DNA of 64,000 bases from Dysgonamonadaceae bacterium. Lineage in GTDB: Bacteria; Bacteroidota; Bacteroidia; Bacteroidales; Azobacteroidaceae. The notes below the pieces were generated by a model. The model saw nothing but the letters and a program-made list of their open reading frames with translations, was not told the origin of the DNA and ran no database searches. Each line of letters starts with the position of its first letter. Position 1 is the first letter of the stretch. The stretch is taken from assembly GCA_031272075.1 (NCBI GenBank), contig JAISUK010000044.1, positions 1 to 64,000 on the forward strand, in the 5' to 3' direction. A program made the position numbers and the translations under genes. This document shows positions 31,021-37,438 of the stretch, piece after piece.

Positions 31021-32502
31021 TTACCATTCTACGAGACGCATATCTCCCGTCTTGTTGAAAGTATTATGGAAAGCAAATGCGTTTTCCAGATGTTGCGGCG
31101 TGTGTCCGGCAACTCCCAACTTCAAGTAATCGTATAATAATTGCTTGTATTCGGGATGTACGCAGTGCTCGATGATGGATTCAGCCCGCTGGATGGGAGA
31201 TAATCCCCGCAAGTCGGCGACGCCACATTCCGTGATCAGGATTTTTACGGAATGTTCGCTGTGGTCAAGATGGGAAACCATGGGTACGATCGAACTGATT
31301 TTCCCGTCTTTGGCGGTAGAAGGCGTTGTGAAGATCGACAGGAAAGCATTTCGGCAGAAATCGCCTGATCCACCGATGCCATTCATCATCTTGATTCCCA
31401 AGACATGCGTCGAATTGATGTTTCCGAAAATGTCCGCTTCGAGCGCCGTATTGATGGCAATTAACCCCAGGCGGCGGGCGATTTCGGGATTATTGGAGAT
31501 TTCTTGTGGACGGAGCACAATTTTTTCTTTGTAGACGTCCAGGTTGCCGTATACTTCTTCTAATGCGGAATCACTCAGTGTCAACGAACATCCGCTGGCA
31601 AACTTTACACGGTTTTCTTTCATCAGTTGTATGACGGAGTCCTGGATTACTTCCGTGTAGACTTCAAAAGCAGGGATGTCTTTGCTCAATCCCATCGCGC
31701 CTAAGACGGCATTGGCGACATTGCCGACGCCCGATTGAACCGGAAGGAATGAGGAAGGGATACGACCGGCTTTGATTTCCGACGACAGGAAGTCGGCGAC
31801 ATTGCGTCCTATCCGTTCGGTCACTTCGTCGGTGGGCGTGAATTTCCCTACTTCGTTCGGGAGATTGGTCTCCACAATGCCGACAATTTTTTTCGGATCA
31901 ACTTTGATATAAGGAACTCCGATTCGGTCGCTGGGTTTATAAACTGGAATTTCTTTACGGTAAGGAGGGTCGGCCGGTTCGTAGATGTCATGCATGCCGC
32001 GCAGTTCTTTTGGGTGGAACCGATTCAGCTCGATGAAGATGCTGTCGGCGAGGCGGGCGACCGTCGGCGCGATTCCGACGGCTGAAGTCAGGATCAGTTC
32101 TCCGTCTTCTGTGACATCGCAACATTCCAGTATTGCAATATTGGGGCGGGGAAGGAACCCGTAACGGATGTATTGTTGCAATTCGGAAAGATGCAGGTCG
32201 AAGTATTGGATGTTGTGAACATTCAGTTCGTTACGCATGTCTTTGTTGGATTGGTATGGCGAGCGAAACTTGACGGCATGTGCACGAGCCAGTTCCCCGT
32301 CGATAGAGTCGCCTGTTGATGCTCCAGTAAAAATGCCGATTTGAAATGGACGTCCGGCGGCATGTTCTTTGTTTGCTTTTTCAGCCAATGCCGAAGTGAT
32401 TGCTTTCGGACATCCGGCGGCTGTGAAACCGCTGAATCCTATGATGTCATTGTTTTTTATACGGTTGGCAGCTTCTTCAGCTGTCATAAAATTAAACCCC
32501 AT
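31021..32502 (-). CDS. acetyl-CoA hydrolase/transferase family CoA-transferase
   Basis: A 493-residue enzyme of the Cat1/AarC group, which moves CoA between acetate, succinate or propionate in fermentation. Family features include FSGFTAAGCPKAITSAL, GASTGDSIDGELA, LPVQSGVGNVANAVLGAMG, the catalytic-glutamate segment EVYTEVIQDSV and GIGGSGDFCRNAFLS. Length and motifs are complete. Together with the ETF and acyl-CoA dehydrogenase genes it fits amino-acid or succinate fermentation in an asaccharolytic or mixed lifestyle. It has its own -7 element and is 25 bases ahead of the aminotransferase gene. Confidence 0.92.
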   Translation of the reverse strand: MGFNFMTAEEAANRIKNNDIIGFSGFTAAGCPKAITSALAEKANKEHAAGRPFQIGIFTGASTGDSIDGELARAHAVKFRSPYQSNKDMRNELNVHNIQYFDLHLSELQQYIRYGFLPRPNIAILECCDVTEDGELILTSAVGIAPTVARLADSIFIELNRFHPKELRGMHDIYEPADPPYRKEIPVYKPSDRIGVPYIKVDPKKIVGIVETNLPNEVGKFTPTDEVTERIGRNVADFLSSEIKAGRIPSSFLPVQSGVGNVANAVLGAMGLSKDIPAFEVYTEVIQDSVIQLMKENRVKFASGCSLTLSDSALEEVYGNLDVYKEKIVLRPQEISNNPEIARRLGLIAINTALEADIFGNINSTHVLGIKMMNGIGGSGDFCRNAFLSIFTTPSTAKDGKISSIVPMVSHLDHSEHSVKILITECGVADLRGLSPIQRAESIIEHCVHPEYKQLLYDYLKLGVAGHTPQHLENAFAFHNTFNKTGDMRLVEW

Positions 32503-32544
32503 GTTTATTCTATTATGATTAATTTATATGTTAAAATTCGGATG

Positions 32545-32552
32545 CAAAGGTA
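32545..32552 (-). promoter_or_regulatory. candidate -7 element of the CoA-transferase gene
   Basis: On the minus strand the sequence reads TACCTTTG, a full TAnnTTTG match about 43 bases before the ATG. The nearest TTTG (32577-32580) gives a 24-bp spacer, longer than usual. Confidence 0.5.
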
Positions 32553-32738
32553 ACGTTTTTCCTCGGTAAATGCTATCAAACAATCGAAAAATATTCATTT
32601 GTTGTGACGCTGCAGCTACGTTTCTGTAATCGATTTTCAATCACTAAGTTGTAATTAATTATCAAAATTCTAACGCATTCTCGTAATAATAAACGCCACA
32701 AGCCGGTTTTTGTGAATTAATGTGTTGCCCCGCAAAAT

Positions 32739-32762
32739 GCGGCTGGTACAGCGGCTGGTACA
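32739..32762. repeat. perfect tandem 12-mer
   Basis: GCGGCTGGTACA occurs twice head to tail (32739-32750, 32751-32762). It is G+C-rich in an otherwise AT-rich gap, and its end touches the first of the 33-bp-phased repeats. Beyond these repeats the 392-base gap between the CoA-transferase and ATPase genes shows no gene. Confidence 0.85.
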
Positions 32763-32843
32763 TACACCGTCATTCTATGCAAATTTATGATGAATTATAC
32801 CGTCATTTTAGGAAGAAAAATAAAAATTTATACCGTCATTTTA
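32762..32843 (+). promoter_or_regulatory. three direct repeats with exact 33-bp phasing (operator-like)
   Basis: TTATACCGTCATTTTA occurs at 32795-32810 and 32828-32843, with a 13/16 copy at 32762-32777. The starts are exactly 33 bp apart, about three helical turns, and the 17-base spacers are unrelated to each other. The last copy ends 22 bases before a TATCTTTG -7 element and therefore covers the place of the -33 box. This is the arrangement expected for cooperative binding of a regulator on one DNA face ahead of the ATPase gene. What binds is unknown. Confidence 0.75.
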
Positions 32844-32865
32844 TTCCGGTTTAAAAAATTATTAC

Positions 32866-32873
32866 TATCTTTG
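32866..32873 (+). promoter_or_regulatory. -7 element of the AAA/DUF4143 ATPase gene
   Basis: TATCTTTG fits TAnnTTTG, 21 bases before the ATG. The -33 position (around 32843-32846) reads TTAT rather than TTTG and is occupied by the third direct repeat, suggesting a promoter that needs or is blocked by a bound factor. Confidence 0.55.
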
Positions 32874-32894
32874 AAGCCTGAAAAATAACGAGAT

Positions 32895-34295
32895 ATGATA
32901 ACGAGAAAAGCGATAGACTATTTGAAGCAATGGAAAGAGCGGTCTGACCGCAAACCATTAGTGCTGCGTGGCGCCCGTCAGGTCGGAAAGACGACCTTGG
33001 TTGAGACTTTCGCCAAAGAATACGACGTGTTCCTGCATCTGAACTTAGAGAGACCTGCCGACCGCGAACTGTTTGAACGGTATCACGAGGTCAGCGAACT
33101 GCTGCGCGCTATCTTCGTTCACAAGAACAAGATTGACCATGGCACGGTTTTGCTCTTCATCGACGAGATTCAGTATTCAAAGCGGGCAGTAGCCATTCTG
33201 CGGTACTTCTACGAAGACCTGCCTCGTATTCATGTCATAACCGCCGGCTCGCTGCTCGAAACGGTGATAGATGTGCGCAAGATTTCGTTTCCTGTCGGAA
33301 GGGTTGAGTATCTGCCCATTCGTCCGTGTACTTTCCTTGAATTTCTGAGCGGAACGGGTAATGATTTCGACGTCAATGTGATACAGTCGTTTGAGGCGGA
33401 TTTTGTTCACGACCGGCTGATGAAACATTTCCACGAATACACCCTCGTTGGCGGAATGCCGGCAATAGTGTCTAAATATGCTGAAAATCACGATGTTTTG
33501 GTTTTGAAACGGCTCTATAACTCTTTGCTGCAAGCCTATAAGGACGATGTCGAAAAATATACGCGAAATGCTACTACCATACGCGCTATTCGCACTATTC
33601 TCGACGTCGGTTGGATGCAGGCAGGTTCCACCATAACATTTGAAAAGTTTGGCGCTTCCGATTTCTCTTCCAAAGAGATGAGTCCGGCGTTTCAAACCAT
33701 TCAGAAGGCTATGCTTTTGGAGTTGGTCTATCCCTCGTCGAGCGTACAAATGCCTGTTTTGCAAAACCTTCGCCGTCAGCCCAAACTGCTTTGGCTTGAT
33801 ACCGGTTTGGTCAATTATTTCTCCGGCATACAGAAAGAAGTGTTTTCGGTTGCTGATATTCAGGACGTTTGGCGGGGAAGGATAGCAGAACATATTGTTG
33901 GTCAGGAACTTTTAGCATTAGACGACAGCATCCTCAACAAACGCCAATACTGGCGGCGCGACAAGCAAGGTTCAGAAGCCGAAGTGGATTTTATCTATAA
34001 ATACAACAGTATGGCAATACCCGTCGAGGTCAAGTCGGGACATAATTCACGCCTGACGTCGCTACATCTGTTTATGGACGAGTGTCCGCACGATTTTGCC
34101 GTTCGCGTCTGGTCGCAGCCGCTTTCGCTCGACGAGGTAACCTCGCCCCGCACCGGTAAACGCTTCCGACTGCTGAGCCTGCCGTTCTATTACGTCGGCA
34201 TATTGGAACGGATATTGGACAAGTATTTCAAACTTCAAACTTCAAACTTCAAGAATGAACATCATCCTTCAAACCTACGGCGCAGCCCTCACTAA
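32895..34295 (+). CDS. AAA ATPase with DUF4143 domain
   Basis: A 466-residue protein of the large, poorly understood AAA_14/DUF4143 family. Walker A is GARQVGKTT (residues 26-34), Walker B LLFIDEIQ (about 86-93), and sensor 1 lies in ITAGSLLE. The DUF4143 part (about 200-390) contains AEVDFIYKYN...PVEVKSG near 362-383, a PD-(D/E)xK-like pattern (D-x15-ExK). Such proteins are often solitary, horizontally moved, and suspected of DNA or toxin-antitoxin-like roles. The last about 20 codons are written by TTCAAAC tandem repeats, so the natural C-terminus was probably altered. It stands apart from other genes, behind phased direct repeats. Confidence 0.88.
   Translation: MITRKAIDYLKQWKERSDRKPLVLRGARQVGKTTLVETFAKEYDVFLHLNLERPADRELFERYHEVSELLRAIFVHKNKIDHGTVLLFIDEIQYSKRAVAILRYFYEDLPRIHVITAGSLLETVIDVRKISFPVGRVEYLPIRPCTFLEFLSGTGNDFDVNVIQSFEADFVHDRLMKHFHEYTLVGGMPAIVSKYAENHDVLVLKRLYNSLLQAYKDDVEKYTRNATTIRAIRTILDVGWMQAGSTITFEKFGASDFSSKEMSPAFQTIQKAMLLELVYPSSSVQMPVLQNLRRQPKLLWLDTGLVNYFSGIQKEVFSVADIQDVWRGRIAEHIVGQELLALDDSILNKRQYWRRDKQGSEAEVDFIYKYNSMAIPVEVKSGHNSRLTSLHLFMDECPHDFAVRVWSQPLSLDEVTSPRTGKRFRLLSLPFYYVGILERILDKYFKLQTSNFKNEHHPSNLRRSPH
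34227..34252. repeat. TTCAAAC heptamer repeat at the ATPase 3' end
   Basis: Three full and one partial TTCAAAC units run head to tail inside the last codons of the ATPase gene, where they encode the residues KLQTSNF. A heptamer is out of phase with codons, so changes in copy number would switch the C-terminal reading frame. Confidence 0.75.
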
Positions 34296-34365
34296 AGACA
34301 AATATAAATTTGCCCATTCGATTGCAACTTCCATTAAAACAAGGATTAAGACGCTGAAAGACTAA
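34255..34365 (+). pseudogene. 36-codon remnant, N-terminus weakly Cas1-like
   Basis: A short frame overlapping the end of the ATPase gene in another frame. It starts MNIILQTYGAALTKDK, which resembles the opening of Bacteroidetes Cas1 proteins (pattern M-x-IIL-x-T-Y/F-G-x-x-L), then runs into unrelated lysine-rich sequence and stops. No other cas gene and no CRISPR array is present. The likeness rests on about 14 residues, so it could be chance. Confidence 0.25.
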
Positions 34366-34624
34366 ATATATAATCGTACATTTCTGGGAGAAAAAGAGAA
34401 TTTTTCCTTTTTATCTGCCGCCCTATTCCCCGCATCTGAACATTGCGTCAACGCACTTTATTAATTACGCGCATATCGCCGCTTAATTTTAATTACTTAC
34501 TTATTTCTGAGTAATCGCCAATTTACGAATTTTCGTCGTTTCAGCCCGTTATTACCCCGTTTGAGCCATTTTTTGTAAGCATTTTTCTGCGAAAACACTT
34601 ATTTTCGCACATTATTTTTTAATA
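34366..34624. other. gene-free AT-rich stretch
   Basis: No open frame, repeat or consensus promoter was found in these about 260 bases. It contains several short T-runs and lies between a truncated frame and a nonsense-interrupted small gene, consistent with decayed sequence. Confidence 0.4.
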
Positions 34625-34882
34625 ATGTTTATGAAAAAAGAATTATTTATTTTATGCCTGCTTTTATCAGTCTTTTCGATGCAGGCGCAACCGCCACCAG
34701 GCAGCGGAGGAAGAGGTATAGGCGACCGTCAGGGTCCGCCGCCGTCGGGGATAGGACAACGAGGCGAGAGTGGCAAAGAAAATACCGAACTGCGTCTCGA
34801 TCCTTAACAAAGAGGCAGTATGGATGGCAGAGAAGGGATGCCTCCCGCTGGCGGAGGGCAACGACCTGATTTCAGGCGGTAA
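34625..34882 (+). pseudogene. small secreted Gly/Pro-rich protein interrupted by an in-frame TAA
   Basis: The first 60 codons encode a signal peptide (KKELFILCLLLSVFSMQAQ) and a Pro/Gly/Gln/Arg-rich tail (PPPGSGGRGIGDRQ, PPPSGIGQRGESG). The frame meets TAA at 34805-34807 but then continues in the same frame for 24 more codons with the same composition (QRGSMDGREGMPPAGGGQRPDFRR) to a second TAA at 34880-34882. The matching low-complexity sequence on both sides shows that one 84-codon gene was cut by a nonsense change. ATG at 34625 or 34631 could be the start. Small GP-rich exported proteins of this sort occur in Bacteroidetes; no function is known. Confidence 0.6.
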
Positions 34883-34915
34883 AGTAATTTGTAAAAAATT
34901 TTGTGTAAATAAAAT

Positions 34916-35754
34916 ATGAAAATATTTGTCATCAAAAAAATGAAACATAGCCTACTGATTGCACTTGGATTGTTAGTTGTTTTCATTGCATATTGGAGCA
35001 TTTATTACGTAATAACGCCGATGCCTGCAGACTTTGAATACGACGACAATCTATCTGAACCAATTCTGATTGCTCACGCGGGCGGCGAGATTGAAGGACA
35101 TATCTACACCAATTCTGTAGAAGCGGTAATTCAGTCAATATCAAATCAATACAAATTTATCGAACTCGATTTGAGAAAAACAGCCGATAACCATATTGTG
35201 GCGCTCCACGACTGGAAACGATTCCATAAATTCAGCGGTTATGAAGGCAAGTCAGAGCGTTTGGAACTGTCGCAATGTAAGCAAAGAGTGCTTTTCGACA
35301 AATTTCATCCTGCCACAGCCGAAGATATCAACAAACTGTTTATTGGTTCCGGATGTTTTCTTGTAACCGATAAAATCCGCGATTATGACCTGCTGAACAG
35401 CGAAATTCAAATTTCAAAAGACAGTATGCTCGTCGAATGTTTCTCATATCACAGTTACCTTCGGGCATTGAAGAAGGGAATAAAATATCCGATGTTATGT
35501 CTTTCGGGCAGTGATTTTAGGATGTTTTTCTAAAAAAATTATGTAAAAATAAAAAAGTAAAAATCATAACTTGCCCCGTAAGATTATTGGAAAGGGAACC
35601 TCAATTACTCAAAGACCTTGTCAATCTGGGAGTGTCAGTCTTTGCGTACTCTACTAACAGTAAAGATTTTGTACACAACAACGGGATTGTAACCCAGTTG
35701 GTTTCAGGTTTTTATACCGACAGAGTTATGCCATCAAAAAAAGAACATCACTAA
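34916..35754 (+). pseudogene. glycerophosphodiester phosphodiesterase-like gene split by a frameshift
   Basis: The 5' part (34916-35533, 205 codons) has a membrane anchor (LLIALGLLVVFIAYWSIYYV) and the GDPD core: IAHAGGEIEGHIYTNSVEA, FIELDLRKTADNHIVALHDW. It stops after SGSDFRMFF. In the -1 frame the sequence then reads LKKLCKNKKVKIITCPVRLL...VSVFAYSTNSKDF...GFYTDRV to a TAA at 35752, which is the missing GDPD C-terminus (the TN and YTD motifs). The switch falls at GTTTTTCTAAAAAAATT, where loss of one base from T5 or A7 would explain it. It is either a pseudogene, a phase-variable gene or a sequencing error. The family hydrolyses glycerophosphodiesters or similar. Confidence 0.7.
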
Positions 35755-35783
35755 ATAAGAAAACTGATGATTTACAACATTAG

Positions 35784-36026
35784 ACAAATTGCTTTTATGC
35801 TGTATCGTACTGCATTTTAACAACAATTTTCGCCTGTTCGCAGGATAATGAAATCGACAATTCCATAACGGAAACGTTTTACAGCATCGGCGGAACGGTC
35901 GCCAAATCCGACGGCAGCGCAGCATTAGGCGCGGCTGCGAGAGCGAGGATACTACGCACATACAACTGTCCAACAGCAAACGGGCGTATGCTATCGTGTT
36001 GCTTTATACTTAGCGATAAAATATGA
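35784..36026 (+). pseudogene. lipoprotein remnant without a start codon
   Basis: An 80-codon open stretch begins after a stop and has no ATG. It reads VSYCILTTIFACSQDNEIDNSI, a lipoprotein signal with lipobox IFAC and an acidic mature start, then continues as FYSIGGTVAKSDGSAALGA to a TGA. The missing N-terminal codons seem to lie in another frame just upstream (MIYNIRQIAFML at 35767), so a frameshift is likely. Together with the two broken genes before it, this marks a decaying block. The rest of this gap down to 36335 holds only a tandem repeat and a -7-like TATTTTTG at 36268-36275. Confidence 0.45.
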
Positions 36027-36206
36027 TTTAATTTTTTTTAACAAGTAATCCGTGCCGCTCTCCGAGGTAGTTGATACACGAAATGGCGAAAACTACCCTC
36101 TATCTCCGAATTTCTCGATGAAATGGGCGTTTTTCGAAAAAAACACATTTTCTCCAACCATAGGGTTACAAAAATAAATCCAAAATGTAACCCCCAAAAG
36201 GGCATT

Positions 36207-36250
36207 TTTTCTCGTTTGAGTACCAAAATTTTCTCGTTTGAGTACCAACT
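36207..36250 (+). repeat. 22-bp tandem repeat, two copies
   Basis: TTTTCTCGTTTGAGTACCAA occurs at 36207-36226 and 36229-36248, a 22-bp period. It lies about 85-130 bases upstream of the next gene and just ahead of a TATTTTTG -7 element (36268-36275); each copy contains a TTTG. It could be a regulator site or a relic of duplication. Confidence 0.8.
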
Positions 36251-36335
36251 TATTCATTTTTTACCTATATTTTTGTTGCCATTTATTATATTTATGTATA
36301 AATAAACAGAAATTATTTTATTAAAATTGATTATT

Positions 36336-37055
36336 ATGAATTGGTTAACTGTGTTAAAAAGTTTTAAATCGTATTGGAAAGGAATATCAATAGGATTATT
36401 GGCGGTAGCATTATTTATCGCAGTGCGCTCTTGCAACGACGCTCAAAAAGAAGTAGAAATACAGAAACACAACGTTGCGGCCTCGCTGGATTCGGTTAGA
36501 TACTATAAGGATAAAAACGGCGATTTATATGCCGAGAAATTATCTTGGATAGTAGAACAATCCGATCTGAAAAAATACAATGAACAATTGGCGGCAAATG
36601 TTGAAGCGCTCGATAAGAAATTGATTGCAGCGGTAAATGCCAAGATGGTAATACATGATACTATTAAGCTGAAAGGCGATACCGTTGAAATTAATACAAC
36701 AATAGATGAAGAGAAATATTCTTTCCCCTTTAGTGACGAGATTCTTAAGGGTGAGATGTTTGTATTACGAAAATTGAACAAACTAACGGCAGAGTCCTTC
36801 GATTATTCTATACATTTGCCTATTGAAGCCTATTTTACCAAGGATTATGCAGTGAGGCTACAATGCAATAATAAGAGCGTCTTTTTAGACGTGCAATCTT
36901 TTATAGATCCTTCTGTAACCAATTTCGCCAAACGCAAAAGATGGTCATTAGGCATATCTGGTGGATTGGGAGCACAATACGGATTGATAAATAACAAGTT
37001 AGATGTTGGTCCACAAGTAGGTGTCGCTGTAGGGTATAACCTGTTTTCCTGGTAA
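36336..37055 (+). CDS. membrane-anchored protein with glycine-rich C-terminus, phage-associated type (DUF6808-like)
   Basis: A 239-residue protein: one N-terminal transmembrane segment (GISIGLLAVALFIAVRSC), a long charged helical part (about 35-90, QKEVEIQKHNVAASLDSVRYYKD, likely coiled coil), a beta part (DTIKLKGDTVEINTT), and a C-terminal glycine-rich beta segment (KRWSLGISGGLGAQYG...VGVAVGYNLFSW). This order recalls proteins of Bacteroidetes phages and integrated elements annotated DUF6808 or spanin-like; I am only moderately sure. The frame opens with a TTG at 36327, but ATG at 36336 is the natural start. No other phage gene is near, so it may be a leftover of an element. Confidence 0.7.
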   Translation: MNWLTVLKSFKSYWKGISIGLLAVALFIAVRSCNDAQKEVEIQKHNVAASLDSVRYYKDKNGDLYAEKLSWIVEQSDLKKYNEQLAANVEALDKKLIAAVNAKMVIHDTIKLKGDTVEINTTIDEEKYSFPFSDEILKGEMFVLRKLNKLTAESFDYSIHLPIEAYFTKDYAVRLQCNNKSVFLDVQSFIDPSVTNFAKRKRWSLGISGGLGAQYGLINNKLDVGPQVGVAVGYNLFSW

Positions 37056-37057
37056 AT

Positions 37058-37438
37058 TCAATACGTTTTCCGATTCAATATTTCGGAATAGACGATTGCA
37101 CGTTTCCAATCTTCCGTATCAGACAGGTCGAGCGTAAATTCGGCGGATTCTTCTTCCGGTTCTTCCAGGAAAGTAGCTTCCGCCGGTGCCAAGACCGTCC
37201 GTTTCACTTCCGGATTATGATCTATTTCGGCAATGCGTTTTTTCGACCTCTTTTTTGATGGTGGCGTTTGGGAGGGCATTTCAAATGAGCGTTCTGGCGA
37301 TTCCTCCTGCCGGTAGGCTTCAGGGGATGCTGTCTCCTGGCTGCTTTGTTGTTTCTTTTTCCTGGAAGCCTGGACGATGGAAAAAACAAAAGAGCCTAAT
37401 ATTATGACGATTGGAAGTAAATCAGATAAATTATCCAT
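37058..37438 (-). CDS. small single-TM protein with charged tail
   Basis: A 126-residue protein with an N-terminal transmembrane helix (LLPIVIILGSFVFSIVQA, residues 7-24), a basic stop-transfer (SRKKKQ) and a long, charged, probably disordered cytosolic part (SPERSFEMPSQTPPSKKRSKKR, then acidic LEEPEEESAEFTLDLSD), ending in DWKRAIVYSEILNRKTY, which looks like a conserved short helix. I recall similar proteins in Bacteroidales, of unknown function. It is convergent with the preceding gene, with 2 bases between the stops. A candidate promoter and leader with a hairpin lie 130-240 bases upstream. Confidence 0.75.
   Translation of the reverse strand: MDNLSDLLPIVIILGSFVFSIVQASRKKKQQSSQETASPEAYRQEESPERSFEMPSQTPPSKKRSKKRIAEIDHNPEVKRTVLAPAEATFLEEPEEESAEFTLDLSDTEDWKRAIVYSEILNRKTY

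Follow-up and report, generated by a model that had tools for sequence, protein, structure and literature searches.

A 33-bp-period repeat array as the likely private operator of a candidate defence ATPase-nuclease gene

The array described here is a set of three direct repeats upstream of an AAA_14/DUF4143 ATPase-nuclease gene in the window, a 64,000-nucleotide stretch of Dysgonamonadaceae bacterium contig JAISUK010000044.1. It is likely the private operator of the gene behind it, bound by that gene's own ATPase-nuclease and autorepressing (probability about 0.7); binding, repression, and nuclease activity are all inferred. Computation shows the array itself, its fixed period and orientation, its attachment to a gene family, a unit sequence private to each gene, and covariation between unit bases and two patches of the protein.

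The array and its gene in the window

The core CCGTCATT starts at positions 32767, 32800, and 32833 of the window, giving three units phased at exactly 33 bp. Copies 2 and 3 agree at all 16 bases (TTATACCGTCATTTTA), and copy 1 matches them at 13/16. A first-pass annotation, made from sequence alone, had described three 16-bp repeats at these starts that share 13-16 of 16 bases between differing spacers, and had read them as a set of sites rather than a tandem duplication. Both claims held, with the amendment that family alignments give a longer unit of about 24 bp (consensus ATTTACCCTTACTTTGTTACAAAA). The 33-bp self-match here is 17/18; in 60 dinucleotide shuffles, no lag scored above 15. In a search of the 3.02-Mb genome, the pair CCGTCATT-N25-CCGTCATT occurs only at this locus, and exact TATACCGTCATTTTA has two copies, both within the window array; with two mismatches allowed, TATACCGTCATTTTA clusters solely there genome-wide. 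The ATG of the ATPase gene lies at 32895, 3′ of a putative Bacteroidetes -7 box (Table 1).

The best PADLOC profile for the window protein, PDC-S01, matches it along its full length (E 1.9e-173, residues 1-444). PDC-S01 joins an ATPase to a PD-(D/E)XK-superfamily domain (PMC12988326). It is reportedly the fourth commonest defence system across prokaryotes. Genes of its type, with some 29,500 copies in bacteria and 10,000 in archaea, rank among the most abundant prokaryotic defence candidates. Validation of most such candidates is pending, and the anti-phage role of PDC-S01 is itself only a candidate one (PMC12988326). The profile match establishes the window gene as a member of this unvalidated phage-defence candidate, and any anti-phage activity is inferred.

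The conserved residues of the PD-(D/E)XK-type domain include D365 and K380, which are invariant in 85 sequences, and E363 and E378, which are conserved in at least 90% of them. An AF2 model of the ATPase (mean pLDDT 91.8) has residues 259-271 in a helix, consistent with the recognition helix of a winged helix, and residues 355-362 in a loop preceding the strand that bears E363 and D365. These placements rest on the model without measured distances. Fold neighbours of the model comprise archaeal Walker ATPases, Orc1/Cdc6 on origin DNA, and STAND ATPases; a sequence search of the PDB returned no chain that matches the ATPase family.

The surrounding segment of the window (~32540-37057, ~4.5 kb), which holds the ATPase gene and a GDPD-like gene, looks inserted and likely is, since the genes that flank it (31021-32502 and 37058-37438) adjoin each other in several relatives (L267, L269, and L273-L276).

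Table 1. Positions of the array, promoter element, and coding features in the window
Feature	Position	Strand	Basis or remark
Array unit 1 (ATACACCGTCATTCTATGCAAATT)	32762..32785	+	Most diverged copy
Array unit 2 (TTATACCGTCATTTTAGGAAGAAA)	32795..32818	+	33 bp past unit 1
Array unit 3 (TTATACCGTCATTTTATTCCGGTT)	32828..32851	+	Promoter-proximal, over the -33 region
Putative Bacteroidetes -7 box TATCTTTG (TAnnTTTG)	32866..32873	+	Sequence; general box position in the family
AAA_14/DUF4143 ATPase-nuclease gene, 466 aa, PADLOC PDC-S01	32895..34295	+	Pfam AAA_14 and DUF4143 matches; PADLOC profile
Predicted winged-helix region, residues ~225-305	33567..33809	+	Model; residues 258-260 (33666-33674) covary with unit positions 16-19
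PD-(D/E)XK-type domain, residues ~321-440	33855..34214	+	Conserved E363, D365, E378, K380; PMC12988326
Loop residues 356-361 ahead of the nuclease strand	33960..33977	+	358, 359, and 361 covary with unit positions 11, 9, and 7

Conservation of the 33-bp period

The period is a property of the gene family. Orthologues were collected from relatives, the order, the phylum, and GTDB species genomes, giving 173 unique sequences, mostly of Bacteroidota, and the best upstream self-match lag was sought between 15 and 60 bp. The best lag is 33 bp in 159/173 orthologues, compared with 8/149 upstream regions of other genes at the same loci; strong self-matches (at least 16/18) are found at 130 ATPase genes versus none of those 8 control regions. 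Motif-defined unit spacings agree (316 at 33 bp and 34 at 32 bp); because the motif model was hand-seeded, unbiased support for the period comes from the lag test. Arrays are missing from a few loci. The first-pass annotation had named two outcomes that would refute it, namely repeats not kept upstream of orthologues or recurring elsewhere in the genome; both were checked, and the repeats are kept and do not recur. That unit sequence varies under a fixed period, that several phyla are involved, and that phages carry paired units all go beyond what it described.

Three is the commonest number of units per array, and two often suffice. Units lie upstream of the gene and on its coding strand in all 64 loci with strong arrays, bar one inverted copy (L185). 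At that locus, the inverted unit sits beside direct ones about 50-130 bp 5′ of the ATPase gene, the sole such case among the 64. A separate observation concerns the upstream region of L048, which has a 66-bp super-period in which alternate 33-bp units are alike; alternating units or duplicated two-unit blocks could each account for it.

Unit sequences diverge widely between genes (e.g., ACCGTCATTTTGAAACA, ACCCTAACTTTGTTACA, TTTGGTTTTGTTACA, GCTCCCGATTTGAAACA, and TTGACTTTGTTACAA), and a bipartite frame roughly 24 bp long is common to most of them. Period and orientation stay constant while the unit changes from gene to gene, with units conserved and spacers diverged within arrays. Paralogues in a single genome (G046) each carry a different unit (TATACCGTCCTTTTGCGCC, TTTGGAAATGTTACAA, and CACCGTCACTTTGAAACAA). 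Distant paralogues, 28-36% identical, mostly have their own arrays at 33 bp and sometimes at 32 bp. One paralogous subfamily, about 33% identical, has the 33-bp lag in 61/70 members and includes a paralogue from the window's own genome (contig C86), which bears a 33-bp array of a different unit. CCGTCATT was not found near other DUF4143 genes of the same genome, an absence that at first seemed to refute the reading, and three of these genes (L003, L006, and L010) lack any array of 33-bp period. Since some own-genome DUF4143 genes have no array and the C86 paralogue has one, the trait belongs to certain subfamilies.

The feature spans several phyla. Arrays are present in metagenome-assembled genomes labelled Desulfobacula, Ignavibacteriae, Spirochaetales, and Acidobacteriota, labels that can be wrong. 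Complete plasmid records give best lags of 33 bp for Collinsella and Glaesserella and 32 bp for Acinetobacter, Criblamydia, Fusobacterium animalis, and one Segatella copri, with scores from moderate to strong. No best lag of 32-33 bp is seen in Segatella copri DSM 18205, a B. thetaiotaomicron plasmid, or F. vincentii.

Protein-DNA covariation and the reader of the units

The unit consensus of 159 orthologues (effective number ~119) was compared with every protein column, counting unit positions from 0. As a null, each base position was evolved along the protein tree at its observed rate, with correction over columns for each base position. The top raw pairs link K260, S259, S258, and their neighbours to positions 16-19, and G359, Q358, and E361 to positions 7-11. 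After tree correction, K260 pairs with position 18 (z 10.8) and position 19 (z 8.9), and G359 pairs with position 9 (z 10.5). S258-17, S259-16, Q358-11, H333-17, and E361-7 are also significant, as are three pairs outside the two-patch pattern (V306-1, H383-1, and Y368-8). The predicted recognition-helix patch (258-260) is thus tied to the 3′ half of the unit, and the loop patch next to the nuclease active site (358-361) is tied to the 5′ half.

The pairings are chemically plausible. Asp or Glu at residue 359 goes with C at base 9 (20/24), Thr with A (12/12), and Asn with G (21/25). The dinucleotide AC at bases 18-19 accompanies R260 in 126/137 sequences and K260 in 1/19.

Held-out prediction, in which only sequences of less than 55% identity served as predictors, supports part of this pattern. 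Out of 433 columns, residue 359 predicts base 9 best, residue 358 base 11, and residue 333 base 17; residues 361 and 258 gave no help in this assay, and residue 260 did not exceed the majority base. In the independent paralogue set (the 70-member subfamily), the column equivalent to G359 again ranks first (z 12.2, at position 10 in that motif's register). The winged-helix signal did not replicate in the same set, and one AAA-domain column scored unexpectedly high.

The ATPase itself very likely reads its own array through a winged helix and a nuclease-type domain, an inference from covariation without binding data. The covariation falls on the ATPase, so the unseen partner that the first-pass annotation had entertained is not needed. 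Its suggestion that dedicated phased sites point to autoregulation is supported, with repression still inferred from placement.

Promoter placement, rival readings, and phage arrays

A TAnnTTTG box lies 3′ of the last unit in 83/159 loci, and about half of the loci have none. The TTTG of the box falls 19-22 bp past the unit's own TTTG core in 51 of the 83 boxed loci, a distance that puts the last unit over the -33 region and spacer. The window differs, its box being 30 bp from the unit core rather than the usual 19-22 bp; a last copy over the -33 region of this promoter, much as the first-pass annotation had it, is a fair reading. At L163, L166, L186, and L190, the last unit extends to the ATG. 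Overlap with the core promoter or contact with the ATG makes autorepression the favoured mechanism. To judge from site placement, both arrangements fit an operator that blocks transcription initiation, and roles in activation or as an assembly platform remain possible.

In the proposed mechanism, the ATPase-nuclease would bind each 24-bp unit at two points, reading the 3′ half with the predicted winged-helix recognition helix and the 5′ half with the loop next to the nuclease active site. An array would typically seat three protomers, 33 bp apart and in the same orientation, with the promoter-proximal one over the -33 region and spacer or, at other loci, over the start-codon region. The protein would repress its own promoter and keep a potentially toxic nuclease low until it is removed or titrated. 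Physical binding, repression, protomer contacts across 33 bp, the defence role, and the trigger are all inferred.

The best-surviving rival holds that the ATPase binds the array, which serves mainly as an assembly and storage platform for an ORC- or STAND-like oligomer and so controls activation of the nuclease, with repression secondary. A rigid 33-bp period despite sequence divergence suggests protomer contacts, and both Orc1/Cdc6 on origin DNA and STAND ATPases are among the fold matches. However, two units are frequently enough and repression explains the promoter placement more simply, which makes this rival unlikely.

Positive autoregulation, in which the ATPase activates its own promoter from the array, draws support from arrays just 5′ of a -7 box in about half of the loci. 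It is very unlikely, as the last unit lies on the -33 region and spacer instead of upstream of the promoter and reaches the ATG at other loci.

Another host protein might read the array, with the covariation reflecting shared ancestry. RptR sets a precedent as a separate small repressor that binds three direct repeats in a defence-island promoter (PMC12255303). Against this stand the paralogues of one genome, which differ in their units and share one period, and the covariation, which survives the tree null, falls on DNA-binding-type surfaces, and returns at the same column in a second subfamily. There is little room left for this reading.

Still harder to sustain is a replication origin or mobile-element end, with iterons and an ORC-like initiator. 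The ORC-like fold, iteron-like look, patchy occurrence, and inserted segment speak for it, whereas genomes carry many chromosomal copies and the units overlap the promoter, with none 3′ of the gene. Chance or plain tandem duplication, to which an AT-rich region and the expansion and contraction of tandem repeats might lend themselves, is all but excluded by the contrast with control regions at 33 bp (159/173 vs. 8/149), the diverged spacers and conserved units, and the covariation.

Two further candidates were rejected: a CRISPR-like array, given that units vary by locus, spacing is short, and the promoter is overlapped; and a transposon end, given the absence of 3′-side units (64 loci, ~3-6 kb each). 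Binding of mobile-element ends likewise needs sites at both ends, and array units lie only upstream in these 64 loci.

The preferred operator reading has relatives among known systems. Like the window array, which overlaps a putative promoter, the RptR sites are three direct repeats in the promoter of a defence island (PMC12255303). RptR is a separate small regulator that reads a 6-bp palindrome, whereas here a large ATPase-nuclease appears to read 24-bp non-palindromic units at 33 bp, and no small regulator gene of the RptR or C-protein style adjoins the window ATPase gene. In restriction-modification C proteins and autoregulated toxin-antitoxin systems, the product of a selfish or defence gene represses its own promoter (reviewed in PMC3874152). 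There the regulator is a small controller or antitoxin, while here it would be the effector itself, with a 33-bp period fixed across the family. Orc1/Cdc6 proteins bind repeated origin sites; together with archaeal Walker ATPases, they are the best fold matches to the predicted model (PDB 2qby, 2qen, and 2fna), with low TM-scores (0.27-0.43 of the query). Unlike them, the ATPase family has an extra PD-(D/E)XK-type domain and sites at its own promoter. The array also resembles the sites of iteron-type initiators in having phased direct repeats beside an ATPase gene, as at the window locus.

Direct-repeat operators, autoregulation, and iteron binding all have precedents. The apparent novelty lies in an array that is shared across a family, private in sequence, and locked in period, that belongs to one of the commonest candidate defence families, and that is inferred to be read by an ATPase-nuclease partly through its nuclease-type domain. 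No report of such arrays was found in the open-access literature searched (subscription papers and preprints were outside its scope). The same search returned a single paper in which DUF4143 appears and described neither a trigger, target, or regulation for PDC-S01-type genes nor an upstream array or autoregulation for PDC-S01. With these arrays, each gene comes with a labelled DNA ligand and the residues inferred to read it are named, which makes regulation, assembly, and phage counter-moves testable. Natural variation among paralogues supplies data on a protein-DNA recognition code within a nuclease fold.

Related arrays occur in phages. A scan of IMG/VR for two ACCCTNANTTTGNNACA units at any spacing of 21-50 bp found 34 uncultivated phage contigs (L286-L319), all with pairs at exactly 33 bp, which likely represent few lineages. 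The ATPase gene is encoded in none of the 34 (contig DNA examined), and the array thus failed as a gene predictor there. The phage arrays are intergenic, next to AT-rich DNA, and near phosphoesterase/exonuclease-like and small DnaA-C-like genes; units are conserved, spacers and flanks differ, and there are several gene contexts. Isolated relatives of these phages were looked for and not found. The pairs may be a decoy, a target, or a phage regulatory site, which these data cannot distinguish. A bolder and less likely possibility is that the array is the control point of a very widespread immune nuclease, which some phages counter or exploit with exactly phased two-unit decoys of their own that bind the host ATPase. 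If true, the gene, its sites, and their phage imitations would make up a rapidly changing lock-and-key system whose protein-DNA recognition code can be read.

A minor observation concerns DNA immediately 5′ of the array, where a tandem GCGGCTGGTACA motif occupies window positions 32739-32762 and recurs in the same position before L323, the two genes being paralogues in one genome. Stretches of TCTACTTTTT...GCTGGTAC that resemble this motif lie 5′ of a few other arrays, and such stretches could conceivably be the end of an IS.
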